64,000 nucleotides of DNA, taken from contig JANQSA010000047.1 in assembly GCA_028284285.1 (NCBI GenBank), forward strand, positions 62,001 to 126,000, given 5' to 3'. The notes below the pieces were generated by a model. That model ran no database searches. It was not told where the DNA came from and saw only the letters and a list, made by a program, of their open reading frames with translations. This document shows, one piece after another, positions 58,137 through 63,594 of the stretch (position 1 is the first letter of the stretch; the number at the start of each line of letters is the position of its first letter). The position numbers were made by a program, and so were the translations under genes. This DNA is from Croceivirga sp. (GTDB taxonomy: Bacteria; Bacteroidota; Bacteroidia; Flavobacteriales; Flavobacteriaceae).

Positions 58137-59045
58137 TTGAATACACTGAAGACCTGGTTGAGTGCCGCCAGATTACGAACACTGCCCTTGTCTGTATCGG
58201 GGATAATAGTGGGTATTGCCCTGGCCAATCACGCGGGTTATCATAATCCTTTTATTGTTCTTTTTTGTTTACTGGTTACCATAGGATTCCAGGTGACTTC
58301 CAATTTTGCCAACGACTATGGAGATGGCACCAAGGGAACGGATAATGCGGATAGGGTAGGACCGGTACGTGCCTTACAAAGCGGTGCGTTAACGGCTTCT
58401 GCACTTAAAAAAGGAATTGTGATCAGCGCAAGTATAAGTATGCTCCTGTCCATTATCTTGTTAAGTTACACTTTTGGAATAACCCGATTTCCACTATTTC
58501 TGTTGTTTATGGTCCTGGGACTACTAAGTGTATGGGCTGCTATAAAGTATACCGTTGGAAGTAACCCGTATGGTTATATTGGCCTGGGAGATGTATTTGT
58601 GTTTCTCTTTTTTGGACTTTTATCCGTACTGGGAACCAAATTTTTACTGGCAGAGCACCTTACCCCATGGGATATGTTGCCGGCAATAGCCATTGGCCTA
58701 TTGTGCATAGGAGTGCTCAATTTAAACAACTTACGGGATGTACACTCTGATAAAAAACATGGAAAAAACACCTTGATTGTTAAGATGGGGTTTAAAAACG
58801 GTAAACGCTATCATGGAGTTCTTTTGCTCCTTAGCATGTTGAGTTTTGTGATATATAGTATGAGCCAAATGCCATCCCTGATAGCAAACGCTTATTTACT
58901 GGTTTACGTACCGGTTTTTTTCCATTTACGGAAAGTAATCCGTACCAAAACACCTTCTGATTTGGACCCGGAGCTTAAGAAGCTTGCGATCTCTACTTTT
59001 CTTCTTTCCCTGGGCTTCTATTTCTCGATTAATTATTTTTTGTAA
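58137..59045 (+). CDS. menA: 1,4-dihydroxy-2-naphthoate polyprenyltransferase
   Basis: A 302-residue membrane prenyltransferase of the UbiA family that attaches the isoprenoid tail to DHNA. The Mg-diphosphate motifs are NFANDYGDGTKGTD near 57-70 and NLRDVHSDKKHGK near 198-210; eight to nine helices. Start is TTG at 58137, immediately after the previous stop. Confidence 0.93.
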   Translation: MNTLKTWLSAARLRTLPLSVSGIIVGIALANHAGYHNPFIVLFCLLVTIGFQVTSNFANDYGDGTKGTDNADRVGPVRALQSGALTASALKKGIVISASISMLLSIILLSYTFGITRFPLFLLFMVLGLLSVWAAIKYTVGSNPYGYIGLGDVFVFLFFGLLSVLGTKFLLAEHLTPWDMLPAIAIGLLCIGVLNLNNLRDVHSDKKHGKNTLIVKMGFKNGKRYHGVLLLLSMLSFVIYSMSQMPSLIANAYLLVYVPVFFHLRKVIRTKTPSDLDPELKKLAISTFLLSLGFYFSINYFL

Positions 59046-59080
59046 TTTTGATTGTTAAAAATTTCTAAACAGCAAACGTT

Positions 59081-59836
59081 TTGGAACACCCCATCAAAAT
59101 TCTCATCGTTGAGGACAACGTCATCATTGCTGATGATATGCAGTCTATGTTGGAGGAGATTGGTTACGAAGTAGTTGACAATGTCATTGTTTATGAACAA
59201 GCGATCGAGGTGCTCAAAAACCACCATGTAGACCTGGTGCTCATAGACATTATCCTGGCCTCGGACAAAACGGGGATAGACCTGGGAAAACATATCCGTC
59301 AGAACTACAATATCCCCTTTATATTTGTCACCTCCAATTCGGACAAAGCCACTGTAGAAAATGCAAAAACGGTAAAACCGGACGGCTACCTGGTAAAACC
59401 TTTTGAGCAACAAGACCTGTATACCTCTATCGAAATTGCACTGTCTAATTTCAACTATTCGAAGAAAAGTGGAAGTACGGATATCACGCAAACCGGAGCC
59501 GAAAGTTTTACTTCAAATTCTGTATTAAAAGATTCTATCTTCGTTAAGAAACAGCATTTGTATTACAGAATTCAATTTGGTGACATACAGTTCATCAAAG
59601 CGGATAACGTATATCTGGAAGTAAATACGGTGGATAAAAAGTTTTTAGTGCGTTCTCCCCTAAAGGACTATTTGGAAAAATTACCAAAAGACAAATTCTA
59701 TCGTGCGCACAAATCCTATATAGTTAATGTCGATCATATAGATGCTATCAATTCGAAGGATATCATGATCAACAACACCCTTATCCCTATTTCTAAAGAC
59801 TTCAAGGAATTCATAATTTCATCCATGAATTCTTAA
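59081..59836 (+). CDS. LytTR-type response regulator
   Basis: A 251-residue regulator: receiver domain (1-120) with acidic Glu11/Asp12, phospho-Asp56 (LVLIDIIL), Thr84 and Lys106 (YLVKPF), a linker, and a LytTR DNA-binding domain (about 150-250: KADNVYLEVNT, FYRAHKSYIVNVDHI). Start is TTG 59081; a TAATTTTG box overlapping the menA stop (59043-59050) may be its promoter. The kinase at 60505 is the likely partner. The gene ends at a terminator, followed by three tandem sites that I infer it binds. Confidence 0.93.
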   Translation: MEHPIKILIVEDNVIIADDMQSMLEEIGYEVVDNVIVYEQAIEVLKNHHVDLVLIDIILASDKTGIDLGKHIRQNYNIPFIFVTSNSDKATVENAKTVKPDGYLVKPFEQQDLYTSIEIALSNFNYSKKSGSTDITQTGAESFTSNSVLKDSIFVKKQHLYYRIQFGDIQFIKADNVYLEVNTVDKKFLVRSPLKDYLEKLPKDKFYRAHKSYIVNVDHIDAINSKDIMINNTLIPISKDFKEFIISSMNS

Positions 59837-59868
59837 CGCAGAGGATTTGTTAAACACAAAATAGTTTT

Positions 59869-59894
59869 AGCGCCATATATATAGGCGCTTTTTT
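59869..59894 (+). terminator. Intrinsic terminator after LytTR regulator
   Basis: AGCGCC (59869-59874) pairs with GGCGCT (59884-59889) around an AT-only loop, followed by six T. It separates the regulator gene from the promoter array downstream. Confidence 0.8.
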
Positions 59895-59929
59895 GTTTGC
59901 GAATGTTTCTATGCCGTATTCCTGGCTAA

Positions 59930-59995
59930 TTCACCACAAGTTCAGATAGGTTCACAACATTAGTTTTAGTGTACAAATCGGGCGAACTACTTTTA
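59930..59995 (+). promoter_or_regulatory. Array promoter A: 21-bp-spaced repeats plus -7 box
   Basis: TTCACCAC (59930-59937) and TTCACAAC (59951-59958) are direct repeats 21 bp apart. A TACTTTTA box begins at 59988, 30 bp after the end of the second repeat. No TTTG -33 element stands at the usual distance, so activation by a bound regulator is likely. First of three identical arrangements. Confidence 0.65.
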
Positions 59996-60001
59996 GCATG
60001 T

Positions 60002-60086
60002 AATACAAAATTAAAGGGTAATTTTTTCATTTTCATATAGTGTTCTCGTGAAAGGGTCTTCTCATAAAGGAAGGCCCTTTGTTTTT
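60002..60086 (+). ncRNA. Predicted small RNA A
   Basis: The start is set about 7 bases after the -7 box of promoter A; the end is an intrinsic terminator: AAAGGGTCTTC (60051-60061) pairs with GAAGGCCCTTT (60070-60080) over 11 bp with one wobble, then GTTTTT. The RNA of about 85 nt has an AU-rich 5' half and no convincing reading frame. Promoter and terminator are direct observations; the RNA and its function are inference. Confidence 0.5.
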
Positions 60087-60162
60087 GTACCAATTGGCGT
60101 ATTCTTTCCATGAAATGCACAAAACCACGATAAAATGCAATTGTGCATCGGTTAAGAGCACT

Positions 60163-60228
60163 TTCACAACAAAAAAAAGGGGTTTCACAACAAAACAGGA
60201 AGTGACGTTTTCTTTCCTCCTATTTTTG
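60163..60228 (+). promoter_or_regulatory. Array promoter B: 21-bp-spaced repeats plus -7 box
   Basis: TTCACAAC occurs at 60163-60170 and 60184-60191, 21 bp apart. TATTTTTG begins at 60221, again 30 bp after the second repeat. This is the most regular copy: the two repeats are identical over eight bases and flanked by A on their 3' sides. Confidence 0.7.
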
Positions 60229-60234
60229 AAACAG

Positions 60235-60312
60235 ACAATGTAGAGACCCCAAATCTTAGCATTCCTTATAATGTCAAGAAAGACTGTACGAAAGTAGTGT
60301 GCGGTCTTTTTT
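60235..60312 (+). ncRNA. Predicted small RNA B
   Basis: The start is set about 7 bases after the -7 box of promoter B; the end is an intrinsic terminator: AAAGACTGTAC (60279-60289) pairs with GTGCGGTCTTT (60299-60309) over 11 bp with two wobbles, followed by a T run to 60312. The RNA of about 78 nt has a C-rich stretch (GAGACCCC, 60243-60250) near its 5' end that could be an unpaired seed. A frame of eight codons (60271-60297) ends within the hairpin and is probably chance. Confidence 0.5.
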
Positions 60313-60378
60313 CTTGATATTTTCAAAATTCATCAAAATTAATTCTATGGTTAAGCGCTTCAAGTGTTTTGAAGGGGT

Positions 60379-60444
60379 TTCACCACGTATGCTATTGGAT
60401 TGACAACAAAAATTAAATGGGCAACTGGGATCGTAGTAATTTTG
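60379..60444 (+). promoter_or_regulatory. Array promoter C: 21-bp-spaced repeats plus -7 box, driving the kinase
   Basis: TTCACCAC (60379-60386) and TTGACAAC (60400-60407) are 21 bp apart, and TAATTTTG begins at 60437, 30 bp after the second. Transcription from about 60451 would give the kinase mRNA a leader of about 54 bases. Three of eight positions differ between its two repeats, so it may be the weakest site. Confidence 0.65.
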
Positions 60445-60504
60445 TGACAAAAGGAGTAACGGTTGCCCTTTCTAAGGGATTGGACTAATACGCTATTGGA
60501 AATT

Positions 60505-62466
60505 ATGTTTTCAACACAAAAAAAATTGCTGCTACTATTTTTGTTCCTTTTTGGAGGCCTGAGTACTGCCATTCCCCAACCTACTCAGGAAAAAGATCCG
60601 TTTACCACTTTTCAAGAAACAAATGGGGCGACAAACAAGCTGAATTTTTTCTTTGCTACTCCTAACAGGTATAAAAAAAGTTCTGCCTATGATTGGCTGG
60701 AAGCGGTAAAAGTATATCTCAGTACAGCAGAGAAATCAAAAGATACGTTCGGGATTAAAGCCTACAGATTGATGCAGGCGCAATTATATAATGATATTTC
60801 GGATCATTATAAAAGTATTGCCATTGCCAATGAGCTCTATCAGGAGGTAGACAGTTTGGAAAGTACCGAGTTAAAACTGATCCTGCAATTACTGGATCAG
60901 AATTATGGCAGGCTTCAAATGTATGATAAACAGATAGAGGTTCGCGAACAAATGCAAGAACTTGGGATAACGGAAAGCGTTCCTTTTTATGACATATATG
61001 CCAATATGGGGCTTTATCGGAAAGCTATGGAGCAGTATATCCTGGCGGTTAAACCCACAATTCCGGACAATGACCATTTGGCGCTAGCCAAACATCACAA
61101 CACCGTGGGATACTACCTGTACCTGGATAAATCTCCGGAGACGGCTACCAATGAATTTAAAAAAGCCCTGGGTTTTCTAGAGGTATATATCAATGACATC
61201 TCCAGGCAAAAATCGGAAAAGGATATCTTTGAAAGTGAGGCTTTAAAAGCAGAAATTGAGGGGAACATTGGGAAATGCCATGTACAATTAAAGGAATACC
61301 AGGAGGCCCTACCCCTGTTAACCAGCAGTCTTTCTGTACTGGAAGAATTTAATCATGGGAGGTATAAAAATCAGATTGTAGATAATACCCTTAATCTTGC
61401 GGAGACACATTTGATATTGGACAATAACCAAACGGCAAAGCAATTATTGGATAAGCGATTTGAGGATATTGAGATCAGGCAGGAAATAAAGCGAAACAAA
61501 CTACTGGCAGCTTACTTTGATAAAGAGGAAAACTTCAGAAGTAGTTCGGGCTTTTACAAAAGGAATGAATACATTATGGATTCGCTAAAAGCAAATGAGC
61601 GGTCCATTTTACAGCAACAACTTGTTGCTATTGTGGGTACTTCGGATTTGGAAAATTCCCGTAGGCTTATCAATGAACAAAAACTGGCTAATGAAAGGAT
61701 TCGGAATGAGATACAAGCCAAGGACGAGCGCATTAATTTGGTTATTATTTCATTGATTTTTACGTTGCTGGGGTTTATGGGGCTGGTATATGCCTATCTT
61801 AAGAGTATTAAAAACCAACGACTCATTGCCGAACAGAAGTATATTATAGAAAACTCCCTTAAAGAGAAGGATTCACTTTTGAAGGAAATTCACCACCGCG
61901 TAAAAAATAACCTTCAGATGGTATCCAGTTTATTGAGTTTGCAAACGCGAAATACAAAAAGCAAAGCAGCAATTGTAGCCCTTGAAGAAGGAAAAAGCCG
62001 GGTGAAGGCAATGGCGCTCATTCACCAGAAATTGTACCAGAATGAAGACTTGTCCGTTATTGAAATGCAAGGCTATATAGAGAGTCTTATTAACAGTGTC
62101 CAATCCGTTTACAAAAAAGGAGGGCATAACATCAGTATCACCGTAGATGCCGAAGGAACAGAACTGGATATCGATCGGGCTATTCCTTTTGGACTTATAC
62201 TTAATGAGTTGGTATCCAATACTTTCAAATACGCTTTTCCGGAAAGTGATGAAAATGGAAAAATTTATATTCATTTAAGAAAGAACGGCGACAAGGGATA
62301 TTTCGAGTATTCAGACAATGGTGTAGGTCTTCCGGTAGATACGGATGAACGTACCAGTAATTCTATGGGACTACGACTTATAAACCGATTGGTAAACCAG
62401 TTGCAGTCCAAATTGAATATTGACCGGGGTAGTGAAGGCGTTCGCTTCTGGTTTAATTTTAGCTAA
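60505..62466 (+). CDS. TPR sensor histidine kinase (HisKA_2 type)
   Basis: A 653-residue kinase. Signal peptide (about 1-28), periplasmic helical region with TPR-like repeats (about 50-370), one membrane helix (about 412-432), then HisKA_2 with KEIHHRVKNNLQM (His463/464) and a HATPase domain (NELVSNTFKYAFP, SDNGVGLP, SMGLRLINRLV). ATG 60505 gives a clean signal peptide; an earlier start at 60463 would remove it. Likely partner of the LytTR regulator upstream, and under control of array promoter C, so autoregulated. Confidence 0.93.
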   Translation: MFSTQKKLLLLFLFLFGGLSTAIPQPTQEKDPFTTFQETNGATNKLNFFFATPNRYKKSSAYDWLEAVKVYLSTAEKSKDTFGIKAYRLMQAQLYNDISDHYKSIAIANELYQEVDSLESTELKLILQLLDQNYGRLQMYDKQIEVREQMQELGITESVPFYDIYANMGLYRKAMEQYILAVKPTIPDNDHLALAKHHNTVGYYLYLDKSPETATNEFKKALGFLEVYINDISRQKSEKDIFESEALKAEIEGNIGKCHVQLKEYQEALPLLTSSLSVLEEFNHGRYKNQIVDNTLNLAETHLILDNNQTAKQLLDKRFEDIEIRQEIKRNKLLAAYFDKEENFRSSSGFYKRNEYIMDSLKANERSILQQQLVAIVGTSDLENSRRLINEQKLANERIRNEIQAKDERINLVIISLIFTLLGFMGLVYAYLKSIKNQRLIAEQKYIIENSLKEKDSLLKEIHHRVKNNLQMVSSLLSLQTRNTKSKAAIVALEEGKSRVKAMALIHQKLYQNEDLSVIEMQGYIESLINSVQSVYKKGGHNISITVDAEGTELDIDRAIPFGLILNELVSNTFKYAFPESDENGKIYIHLRKNGDKGYFEYSDNGVGLPVDTDERTSNSMGLRLINRLVNQLQSKLNIDRGSEGVRFWFNFS

Positions 62467-62541: not shown

Positions 62542-63594
62542 ATGACGGCAAAGTACGTAAAACACATTCTTCAATTTAAACGGGCCAGTGGAACTTCCAG
62601 GGGGGTAATGACCCAAAAAGAAACCTGGTTTATCCTGATTCAAGACAGTGAGAACTATGGAATAGGGGAGTGTGGATTGCTTCGCGGGTTAAGCATAGAC
62701 GACAGAGAGGACTATGAACAGCAACTGCAGTGGACCTGTGAAAACATCCATCTGGGAAAAGAAGAACTACTGTTGGCTTTGGCTGATTTTCCTTCTATTC
62801 GCTTTGGGGTAGAGCAAGCTTTTCTTTCCCTTAAAGCACGGCATCCTTTTGCACTTTTCCCGTCAAAATTTACAGCTGAGGAAGCCCCAATAGCCATAAA
62901 CGGGTTGATTTGGATGGGAGAAGAACGCTTTATGATGGAACAGATAGCGGAAAAGCTGGAGCAGGGATTTCGTTGTATAAAGATGAAAATTGGGGCGATT
63001 GATTTTTCGGTTGAGCTCAAGCTCTTAAAAAGTATACGAGAGCGGTTTCCTGAGGATGAGTTAGAGCTGCGGGTAGATGCCAATGGGGCTTTTTCCTCCT
63101 CGGAAGTACTGCAAGTACTGGAACAACTATCAGAACTTGGGATCCATTCCATAGAGCAACCCATACGGCAAAAACAGGGGAAGCAAATGGCCGATCTGTG
63201 TTTAAAGACACCACTACCCATTGCTTTGGACGAAGAATTGATAGGAGTCCATGAGATATCTGAAAAGAAGAAATTACTACAAACCATTCGTCCCCAATAC
63301 ATAATTCTTAAGCCTAGTTTAATTGGAGGCTACCGAGCCAGCATGGAATGGATAAGGTTAGCTGAGACCATGGAAATAGGTTGGTGGGTGACCAGTGCCC
63401 TGGAAAGTAATATTGGTCTTAATGCAATTGCCCAATGGACGTATACTTTAAACAATAGCATGCCCCAGGGTTTGGGTACGGGAAGTCTTTTCACAAATAA
63501 TTTTAAAAGCCCATTGGAAGTAGAAGGGGGAAATTTATTTTATCGAAAACACCTATCTTGGCAGGCAAATTTAATGGAGCAACTATGTATATAG
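62542..63594 (+). CDS. menC: o-Succinylbenzoate synthase
   Basis: A 350-residue enolase-superfamily enzyme that dehydrates SHCHC to o-succinylbenzoate. Catalytic residues are in place: Lys147-x-Lys149 (IKMKIG), metal ligands Asp179 (RVDANG), Glu205 (IEQPI) and Asp230 (ALDEE), and Lys257 (ILKPSLIGG). The menaquinone context makes OSB synthase more likely than dipeptide epimerase. Its stop overlaps the CPBP gene start by 10 bases. Confidence 0.92.
   Translation: MTAKYVKHILQFKRASGTSRGVMTQKETWFILIQDSENYGIGECGLLRGLSIDDREDYEQQLQWTCENIHLGKEELLLALADFPSIRFGVEQAFLSLKARHPFALFPSKFTAEEAPIAINGLIWMGEERFMMEQIAEKLEQGFRCIKMKIGAIDFSVELKLLKSIRERFPEDELELRVDANGAFSSSEVLQVLEQLSELGIHSIEQPIRQKQGKQMADLCLKTPLPIALDEELIGVHEISEKKKLLQTIRPQYIILKPSLIGGYRASMEWIRLAETMEIGWWVTSALESNIGLNAIAQWTYTLNNSMPQGLGTGSLFTNNFKSPLEVEGGNLFYRKHLSWQANLMEQLCI

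Follow-up and report, generated by a model that had tools for sequence, protein, structure and literature searches.

VirR, the regulator of the VirSR/VR-RNA system of Clostridium perfringens, belongs to the LytTR class. The section of PMC2838878 dealing with its binding sites describes two direct repeats on the same face of the DNA, at a fixed distance from the promoter, in the control of VR-RNA. In the agr system of Staphylococcus aureus, AgrA binds to a pair of direct repeats immediately 5' of neighbouring promoters, those of RNAIII and of the sensor operon (PMC4227749). The passages of PMC13114119 that concern spy place this gene under the control of CpxAR and BaeSR in E. coli and together with sigma/anti-sigma genes in Phocaeicola vulgatus. 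Finally, Rfp18 of Flavobacterium psychrophilum is described in the corresponding part of PMC9723704 as a small RNA conserved in its genus, with a third stem-loop serving as pairing region.

We have analysed a locus of comparable layout in a 64-kb stretch of Croceivirga DNA, referred to here as the window. As in agr (AgrA, P2/P3, RNAIII), a LytTR regulator is accompanied by two direct repeats near promoters, and a sensor-gene promoter is combined with promoters for regulatory RNAs, predicted here at LytTR-type sites. In contrast to agr, the ORF list of the gap between regulator and kinase genes contains no agrB/agrD-like peptide gene (the outer neighbours are a UbiA-family and a MenC-like gene), the kinase is of the HisKA_2 type, the promoters are tandem rather than divergent, and the RNAs, found in Flavobacteriaceae, are ∼85 nt long and multi-copy. 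With VirSR/VR-RNA, as far as the cited section describes it, the locus shares a repeat pair at a fixed promoter distance and control of a regulatory RNA, predicted in our case, whereas VirR boxes lie 7–8 nt apart and 13 nt separate the 8-mers here; phylum, promoter type, RNA and kinase all differ. A Spy-like periplasmic gene in the putative regulon of a possibly stress-type regulator recalls the CpxAR/BaeSR-spy and P. vulgatus systems in the passages cited, although the site here is a LytTR-type repeat and the Spy-like assignment is weak. Rfp18 and the predicted RNA termed sRNA1 below are both conserved flavobacterial small RNAs, set apart by the description of Rfp18 given above. The circuit would be agr- or VirSR-like in logic, with differences in the peptide genes, the class of kinase, the type of promoter and the RNAs. 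LytTR systems acting through small RNAs are already known in kind; the one proposed here would add an RNA family without an Rfam match.

To our knowledge, small RNAs have been little charted in the Bacteroidota, and circuits in which a response regulator acts via small RNAs are mainly known outside this phylum. In the open full-text literature on LytTR proteins and small RNAs in Bacteroidetes/Flavobacteriaceae we found no description of this circuit, nor is it described in the matching part of the sole paper retrieved, a comparative study of F. columnare.

Candidate repeat-pair promoters between regulator and kinase

The gene order at the locus is UbiA-family gene, LytTR response regulator, a gap of 668 bp, HisKA_2 kinase and MenC-like gene (Table 1). 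That a LytTR gene adjoins the repeat array, as the initial annotation had it, is confirmed by Pfam matches to Response_reg (1e-21) and LytTR (3.2e-18), both above cut-off, and this combination of receiver and LytTR domain places the protein in the class of LytTR response regulators. Of 282 related loci, the 80 that match best have regulators 87–96% identical. The kinase matches HisKA_2 (3.8e-26) and HATPase_c (1.5e-8), and a TPR_12 match at 1.5e-6 reaches 28.7 bits, under the cut-off of 30.1. Between the regulator stop at 59836 and the kinase ATG at 60505 there are ORFs of 40–97 aa alone, mostly on the opposite strand, none of which is gene-like in our judgement, in agreement with the earlier claim that no gene accounts for the repeats in the gap.

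Table 1. Coordinates of genes and predicted elements in the window
Feature	Position	Strand	Description
UbiA-family gene	58137-59045		menA by context
LytTR response regulator	59081..59836	+	TTG start; receiver and LytTR DNA-binding domain
Site 1, direct repeat pair TTCACCAC-N13-TTCACAAC	59930..59958	+	repeats start at 59930/59951
Promoter 1, -7 box TACTTTTA	59988..59995	+	predicted start ∼60000
Predicted sRNA1	60000..60088	+	21-nt core 60025-60045; terminator ∼60051-60086
Site 2, direct repeat pair TTCACAAC-N13-TTCACAAC	60163..60191	+	repeats start at 60163/60184
Promoter 2, -7 box TATTTTTG	60221..60228	+	predicted start ∼60233
Predicted sRNA2	60233..60315	+	CCCCAAATCTTA at 60247-60258 conserved; terminator ∼60280-60312
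Site 3, direct repeat pair TTCACCAC-N13-TTGACAAC	60379..60407	+	repeats start at 60379/60400
Promoter 3, -7 box TAATTTTG	60437..60444	+	predicted start ∼60449; 56-nt leader to kinase ATG
Sensor kinase	60505..62466	+	HisKA_2, HATPase, TPR-like N-terminal part
MenC-like gene	62542-63594		3' neighbour of kinase

The window contains three TTSACMAC-N13-TTSACMAC pairs, all of them in this gap and none elsewhere on either strand. In 60 sequences of 64 kb simulated with a first-order Markov model, neither a pair nor a pair-plus-box unit occurred. When start-to-start spacings from 9 to 60 were scanned, pairs were observed at 21 alone, and the 21-bp spacing reported in the initial annotation is exact in all three pairs (59930, 60163, 60379). 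The placement of a box 30 bp downstream in that annotation is right in all three cases when the count runs from the final base of the second repeat, 29 nt lying between. The boxes fit TAnnTTTR and match the flavobacterial promoter element TAnnTTTG, situated at -12 to -5 according to the promoter description in PMC9723704. Because the box is placed at these positions, starts are predicted near 60000, 60233 and 60449, in each case two bases upstream of those proposed earlier (60002, 60235, 60451), and by arithmetic from these predicted starts the repeat centres fall near -66 and -45.

Conservation of the spacing in relatives, a check named by the initial annotation itself, is observed throughout, as at least one full-geometry site is present in all 91 gaps between response regulator (RR) and kinase, representing 82 distinct RR loci since nine contigs occur twice. 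At least two sites are found in 84 of these gaps and three in 15. At a threshold of 12 of 16, this amounts to 190 sites in 50,960 gap positions, whereas 191,181 positions upstream contained 0 and the gaps read on the reverse strand likewise 0. LytTR response regulators are characterised by binding to two direct repeats that lie some two helical turns from each other, 5' of the promoter. Direct repeats of the matching type are present and kept in relatives, binding by the regulator being predicted from the sequence. Sites also occur at loci with more diverged regulators. Six of seven loci with a regulator 68–75% identical carry at least two sites, and 11 of the 16 sites in all are followed within 160 nt by a terminator-like hairpin, as called by a loose detector that also fires in 36 of 168 control windows of 110 nt, the RNA sequences being different. 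Because sites and hairpins are kept there with other RNAs, the site-plus-short-RNA design appears to be older than any single RNA sequence.

Predicted small RNAs and their copies

Promoters 1 and 2 are each followed by a predicted RNA of ∼85 nt, sRNA1 and sRNA2, ending in a hairpin with a T-run. The earlier proposal that the kinase and two short transcripts are co-regulated is thereby supported and given more definite form, the transcripts now being predicted small RNAs with terminators and conserved sequence. The features of an intrinsic-terminator small RNA, namely an own promoter, a Rho-independent terminator and a conserved stem, are all present at the sequence level. Rfam returned no match at gathering score for window positions 59000-61000, GibS reaching 21.8 of 115 bits and RsaE 19.3 of 79.

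Of the 91 RR loci (82 distinct), 85 carry the exact 21-nt core of sRNA1, TTTCATTTTCATATAGTGTTC, the exceptions being L027, L028, L029, L031, L053 and L099. The genomic match of sRNA1 in the profile search scores 84.8 bits, the fold has a z-score of -4.16, and in the minimum-energy fold of the own-genome copy the 5' part is partly paired. An alignment (A1) of 66 distinct copies was selected by the exact 21-nt core, and invariance within the core is therefore a selection effect. In this alignment 97.8% of terminator-stem cells are paired, with 43 double-change cells versus a shuffled mean of 9.5. Counting from the first base of the core, a terminator-like hairpin is reached in no more than 110 nt in 85/85 RR-locus copies versus 36/168 control windows of 110 nt, as judged with a loose detector.

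For sRNA2, 22 candidates were collected by seed and 18 aligned (A2; L045, L075, L082 and L098 left out); the fold z-score is -3.81 and the stem covaries. By eye, most Allomuricauda/Flagellimonas loci are without sRNA2. The sRNA2 model (R2), run on 59 chosen loci, and the sRNA1 model (R1) match identical RNAs in G066 (L234) and G113 (L237), in which the sRNA2 element is joined to the TATAGTGTTC stretch of sRNA1. As these RNAs combine elements of both, their sequences indicate that sRNA1 and sRNA2 are probably paralogues.

Up to six matches per genome at E≤0.001 were obtained with R1 in 299 family genomes. In the own genome these are the window copy, one at C61:194223 beside menB (NCBIfam) and a third, weak match within a prophage-like region. 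We assembled a set of 112 distinct copies, of which RR loci supplied 75 and loci fetched via the RNA itself 37. A promoter is present at the 29-nt gap in 109 of the 112; the remaining gap lengths between 20 and 38 each score in five copies at most. In the corresponding control of repeat spacing, 109 copies score at 21 and 58, 31 and 32 at 18, 19 and 24, respectively, a result less sharp than that for the gap because the repeats hold internal near-repeats. All 41 core matches in 34 scanned loci have the promoter (38 after removal of overlaps between L104 and L143 and between L110 and L137; L115 and L147 contain no core match). The copies in L102, L138 and L145 adjoin a regulator gene, and a serine hydrolase gene and menB are both neighbours in 6 of 32 fetched copy loci, plus the own C61 copy. 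The core carries a 2-nt deletion in G145, and lower-scoring relatives of sRNA1 are found in G090, G298, G066 and G113.

The 49 of 299 family genomes with strong sRNA1 matches (E<1e-8) are, without exception, those that also encode close regulator orthologues (E≤1e-115), a coincidence obtained with thresholds set after the lists had been seen and inflated because all genomes come from one family with shared ancestry. Nine more genomes encode a regulator 58–75% identical and have no strong sRNA1 match; they include the seven (68–75%) whose DNA downstream of the regulator is described above. Among 196 genomes of the order, own family included, matches at E<1e-8 belong to family f1 alone, with none outside it. 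In total 73 family genomes have a match at E≤0.001; 24 of these, at 1e-8 or worse, were treated as mostly chance, G286 alone among them having an RR match. G152, which has no close orthologue of the regulator, was kept apart from these on account of a 49-bit sRNA1-like match (1.4e-7; L233:874-953).

In viral_contigs there was no exact match to the sRNA1 core; the 15-mer AGTGTTCTCGTNAAA occurs there in at least 120 stretches, with no sRNA1 relative at E≤0.1 among the 80 loci listed. The weak own-genome copy, L225:10945-11023 (G000:C13:66444-66522, + strand), is an sRNA1-like stretch of 44.4 bits with TAATTTTTTCAT, AGTGTTCTCGT and a terminator. It is located at a gene end in the prophage-like region, for which PHROGs indicates a DNA methyltransferase and a tail fiber, and no promoter site was seen at it. 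This stretch is possibly a phage mimic or sponge.

Further sites and candidate targets

A further perfect repeat pair, the fourth in the own genome, is accompanied by box TAAATTAG and lies upstream of a gene for a 58-residue protein, single-pass and membrane-type by eye, followed by that for a small secreted-type protein. Of 11 genus genomes, 10 pass the site score for the orthologous pair, the eleventh (L187) having a poor first repeat, while a box-to-ATG distance of 19–20 nt and a similar small ORF are observed in all 11; the first repeat is TTCACCTA in seven. Secreted-protein orthologues match DUF4890 in 9/11 and LTXXQ in 3/11 at E≤0.01, the own protein matches both Pfam families below cut-off, and a search of solved structures returned no relative, the best hit being an unrelated chain at E 0.21. 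The secreted protein is thus weakly indicated to be Spy/LTXXQ-like. Because this Spy-like unit lies under the same site type, and because spy is under stress control elsewhere in the passages of PMC13114119 noted above, a role of the circuit in envelope stress is suggested, at a probability that we place slightly short of even.

Other occurrences of the repeats were also observed. In L160, L170, L172 and L182 (G004, G005, G007, G009) the pair TTAACAAC-N13-TTCACAAC precedes a gene whose product begins MNIAVVGTGYVGLVTGT and looks by eye like UDP-glucose dehydrogenase, the box being missing at the usual place. Repeat pairs without a matching box lie 5' of apparently related small genes in L158 and L165 (G002, G009). 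A full-geometry site (TTTACAAC/TTCACCAC, box TATGTTAG) at L114:1351 (G000:C61:187350, + strand) faces an opposite-strand gene resembling, by eye, that of a primary sigma factor; with no long co-oriented ORF close downstream, it perhaps specifies another short RNA.

Start regions of the type ATGAAAATGAAAA show complementarity to the sRNA1 core. A long antisense target was sought with the 22-nt core complement at up to three mismatches and rejected, as this pattern occurs in the own genome at just a single place apart from the two intact copies. A looser 16-nt scan of the own genome gave 31 matches (29 minus the two copies) versus 11 for the reversed pattern; loci were available for 28 of the 29, and about five (L197, L202, L213, L214, L215) lie by eye at likely start codons. 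One of these is the start region of porG (NCBIfam T9SS_PorG), upstream of an uppS-like gene (L213:1512 region, G000:C54:114082), in which ∼50 nt are imperfectly complementary to sRNA1 in the own genome. The predicted duplex, at -41.5 kcal/mol, is conspicuous among 76 background start regions, a ranking biased because porG had been preselected by pattern; with longer stretches it reaches -48.2. Across 80 genomes the median core-duplex energies were -15.6 in 53 carriers, -12.9 in seven with a diverged regulator and -13.0 in 20 non-carriers, and the pairing is outstanding in some genus members only (G000 -29.4, G005 -25.4), fading outside the genus. On this test porG was rejected as a family-wide target and remains a genus-level candidate. 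No conserved mRNA target was found in one genome searched by pattern and for one candidate gene in 80 genomes.

Proposed circuit and alternatives

Taken together, the sequence comparisons make it quite probable that the locus encodes a LytTR two-component system which is autoregulated and has small RNAs among its main outputs. Judging from their domains, the kinase would relay a signal to the regulator, which in its phosphorylated form would bind as a dimer to the 21-bp-spaced repeats upstream of Bacteroidota-type promoters and activate them. Promoters 1 and 2 would then give rise to the two terminator-ended RNAs of ∼85 nt, predicted to work in trans via their conserved 5' part, whereas promoter 3 would drive the kinase mRNA in a feedback loop, as the position of site 3 upstream of the kinase gene implies. 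The tandem array may have originated from a duplicated promoter and small-RNA cassette, more cassettes having been dispersed, for example beside menB.

An alternative is that sRNA1 and sRNA2 are aborted leaders, promoters 1 and 2 being extra kinase promoters whose transcripts end at intrinsic terminators in a form of attenuation. All three promoters are directed at the kinase and, by eye, site 2 seems to serve it directly in most Allomuricauda/Flagellimonas loci, from which sRNA2 is missing. However, 37 distinct sRNA1 copies come from RNA-fetched loci and, although at least two of these (L138, L145) are still beside a regulator gene, other, unlinked copies, such as that convergent with menB, keep promoter, core and hairpin, and conservation of the core exceeds what a terminator needs; we consider attenuation very improbable. 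The repeats could also be bound not by the adjacent regulator, whose binding is itself a prediction, but by a different one such as a LytTR paralogue. A first look at the own genome with the regulator as query gave 67 candidates, and the repeat sequences have drifted in some of the genomes with multiple copies (TTCACATC, TACACATC). The occurrence of at least one site in 91/91 RR-to-kinase gaps and the coincidence of the regulator with strong sRNA1 matches in 49 genomes speak against this possibility, which appears improbable.

In having a long core that is conserved, and in occurring as several nearly identical copies in a genome, the RNAs described here resemble protein-sequestering RNAs, and they might titrate a protein instead of base-pairing with mRNAs. 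The lack of a conserved mRNA target is consistent with titration but was obtained in a narrow search, made by pattern in a single genome and across 80 genomes for one candidate gene, and we regard this mode of action as unlikely, though deserving of serious attention. The autoregulated LytTR system with small-RNA outputs is thus the reading that we retain. A more far-reaching version, tentative and rather doubtful as a whole, would see in it an envelope-stress pathway of Flavobacteriaceae, in which a LytTR system takes the role of enterobacterial sigma-E or Cpx; sibling RNAs with a near-invariant 5' core, cassette-amplified and even imitated within a prophage, would act on the start codons of outer-membrane or secretion genes to repress them, the Spy-like operon being switched on at the same time.

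The combination of a candidate regulator, a site of fixed geometry and a conserved RNA family makes the circuit directly testable in cultured Croceivirga, Flagellimonas and Eudoraea. It suggests that cassettes of site and RNA duplicate and disperse as units, and would provide a handle on the role of a conserved small RNA in marine flavobacteria.
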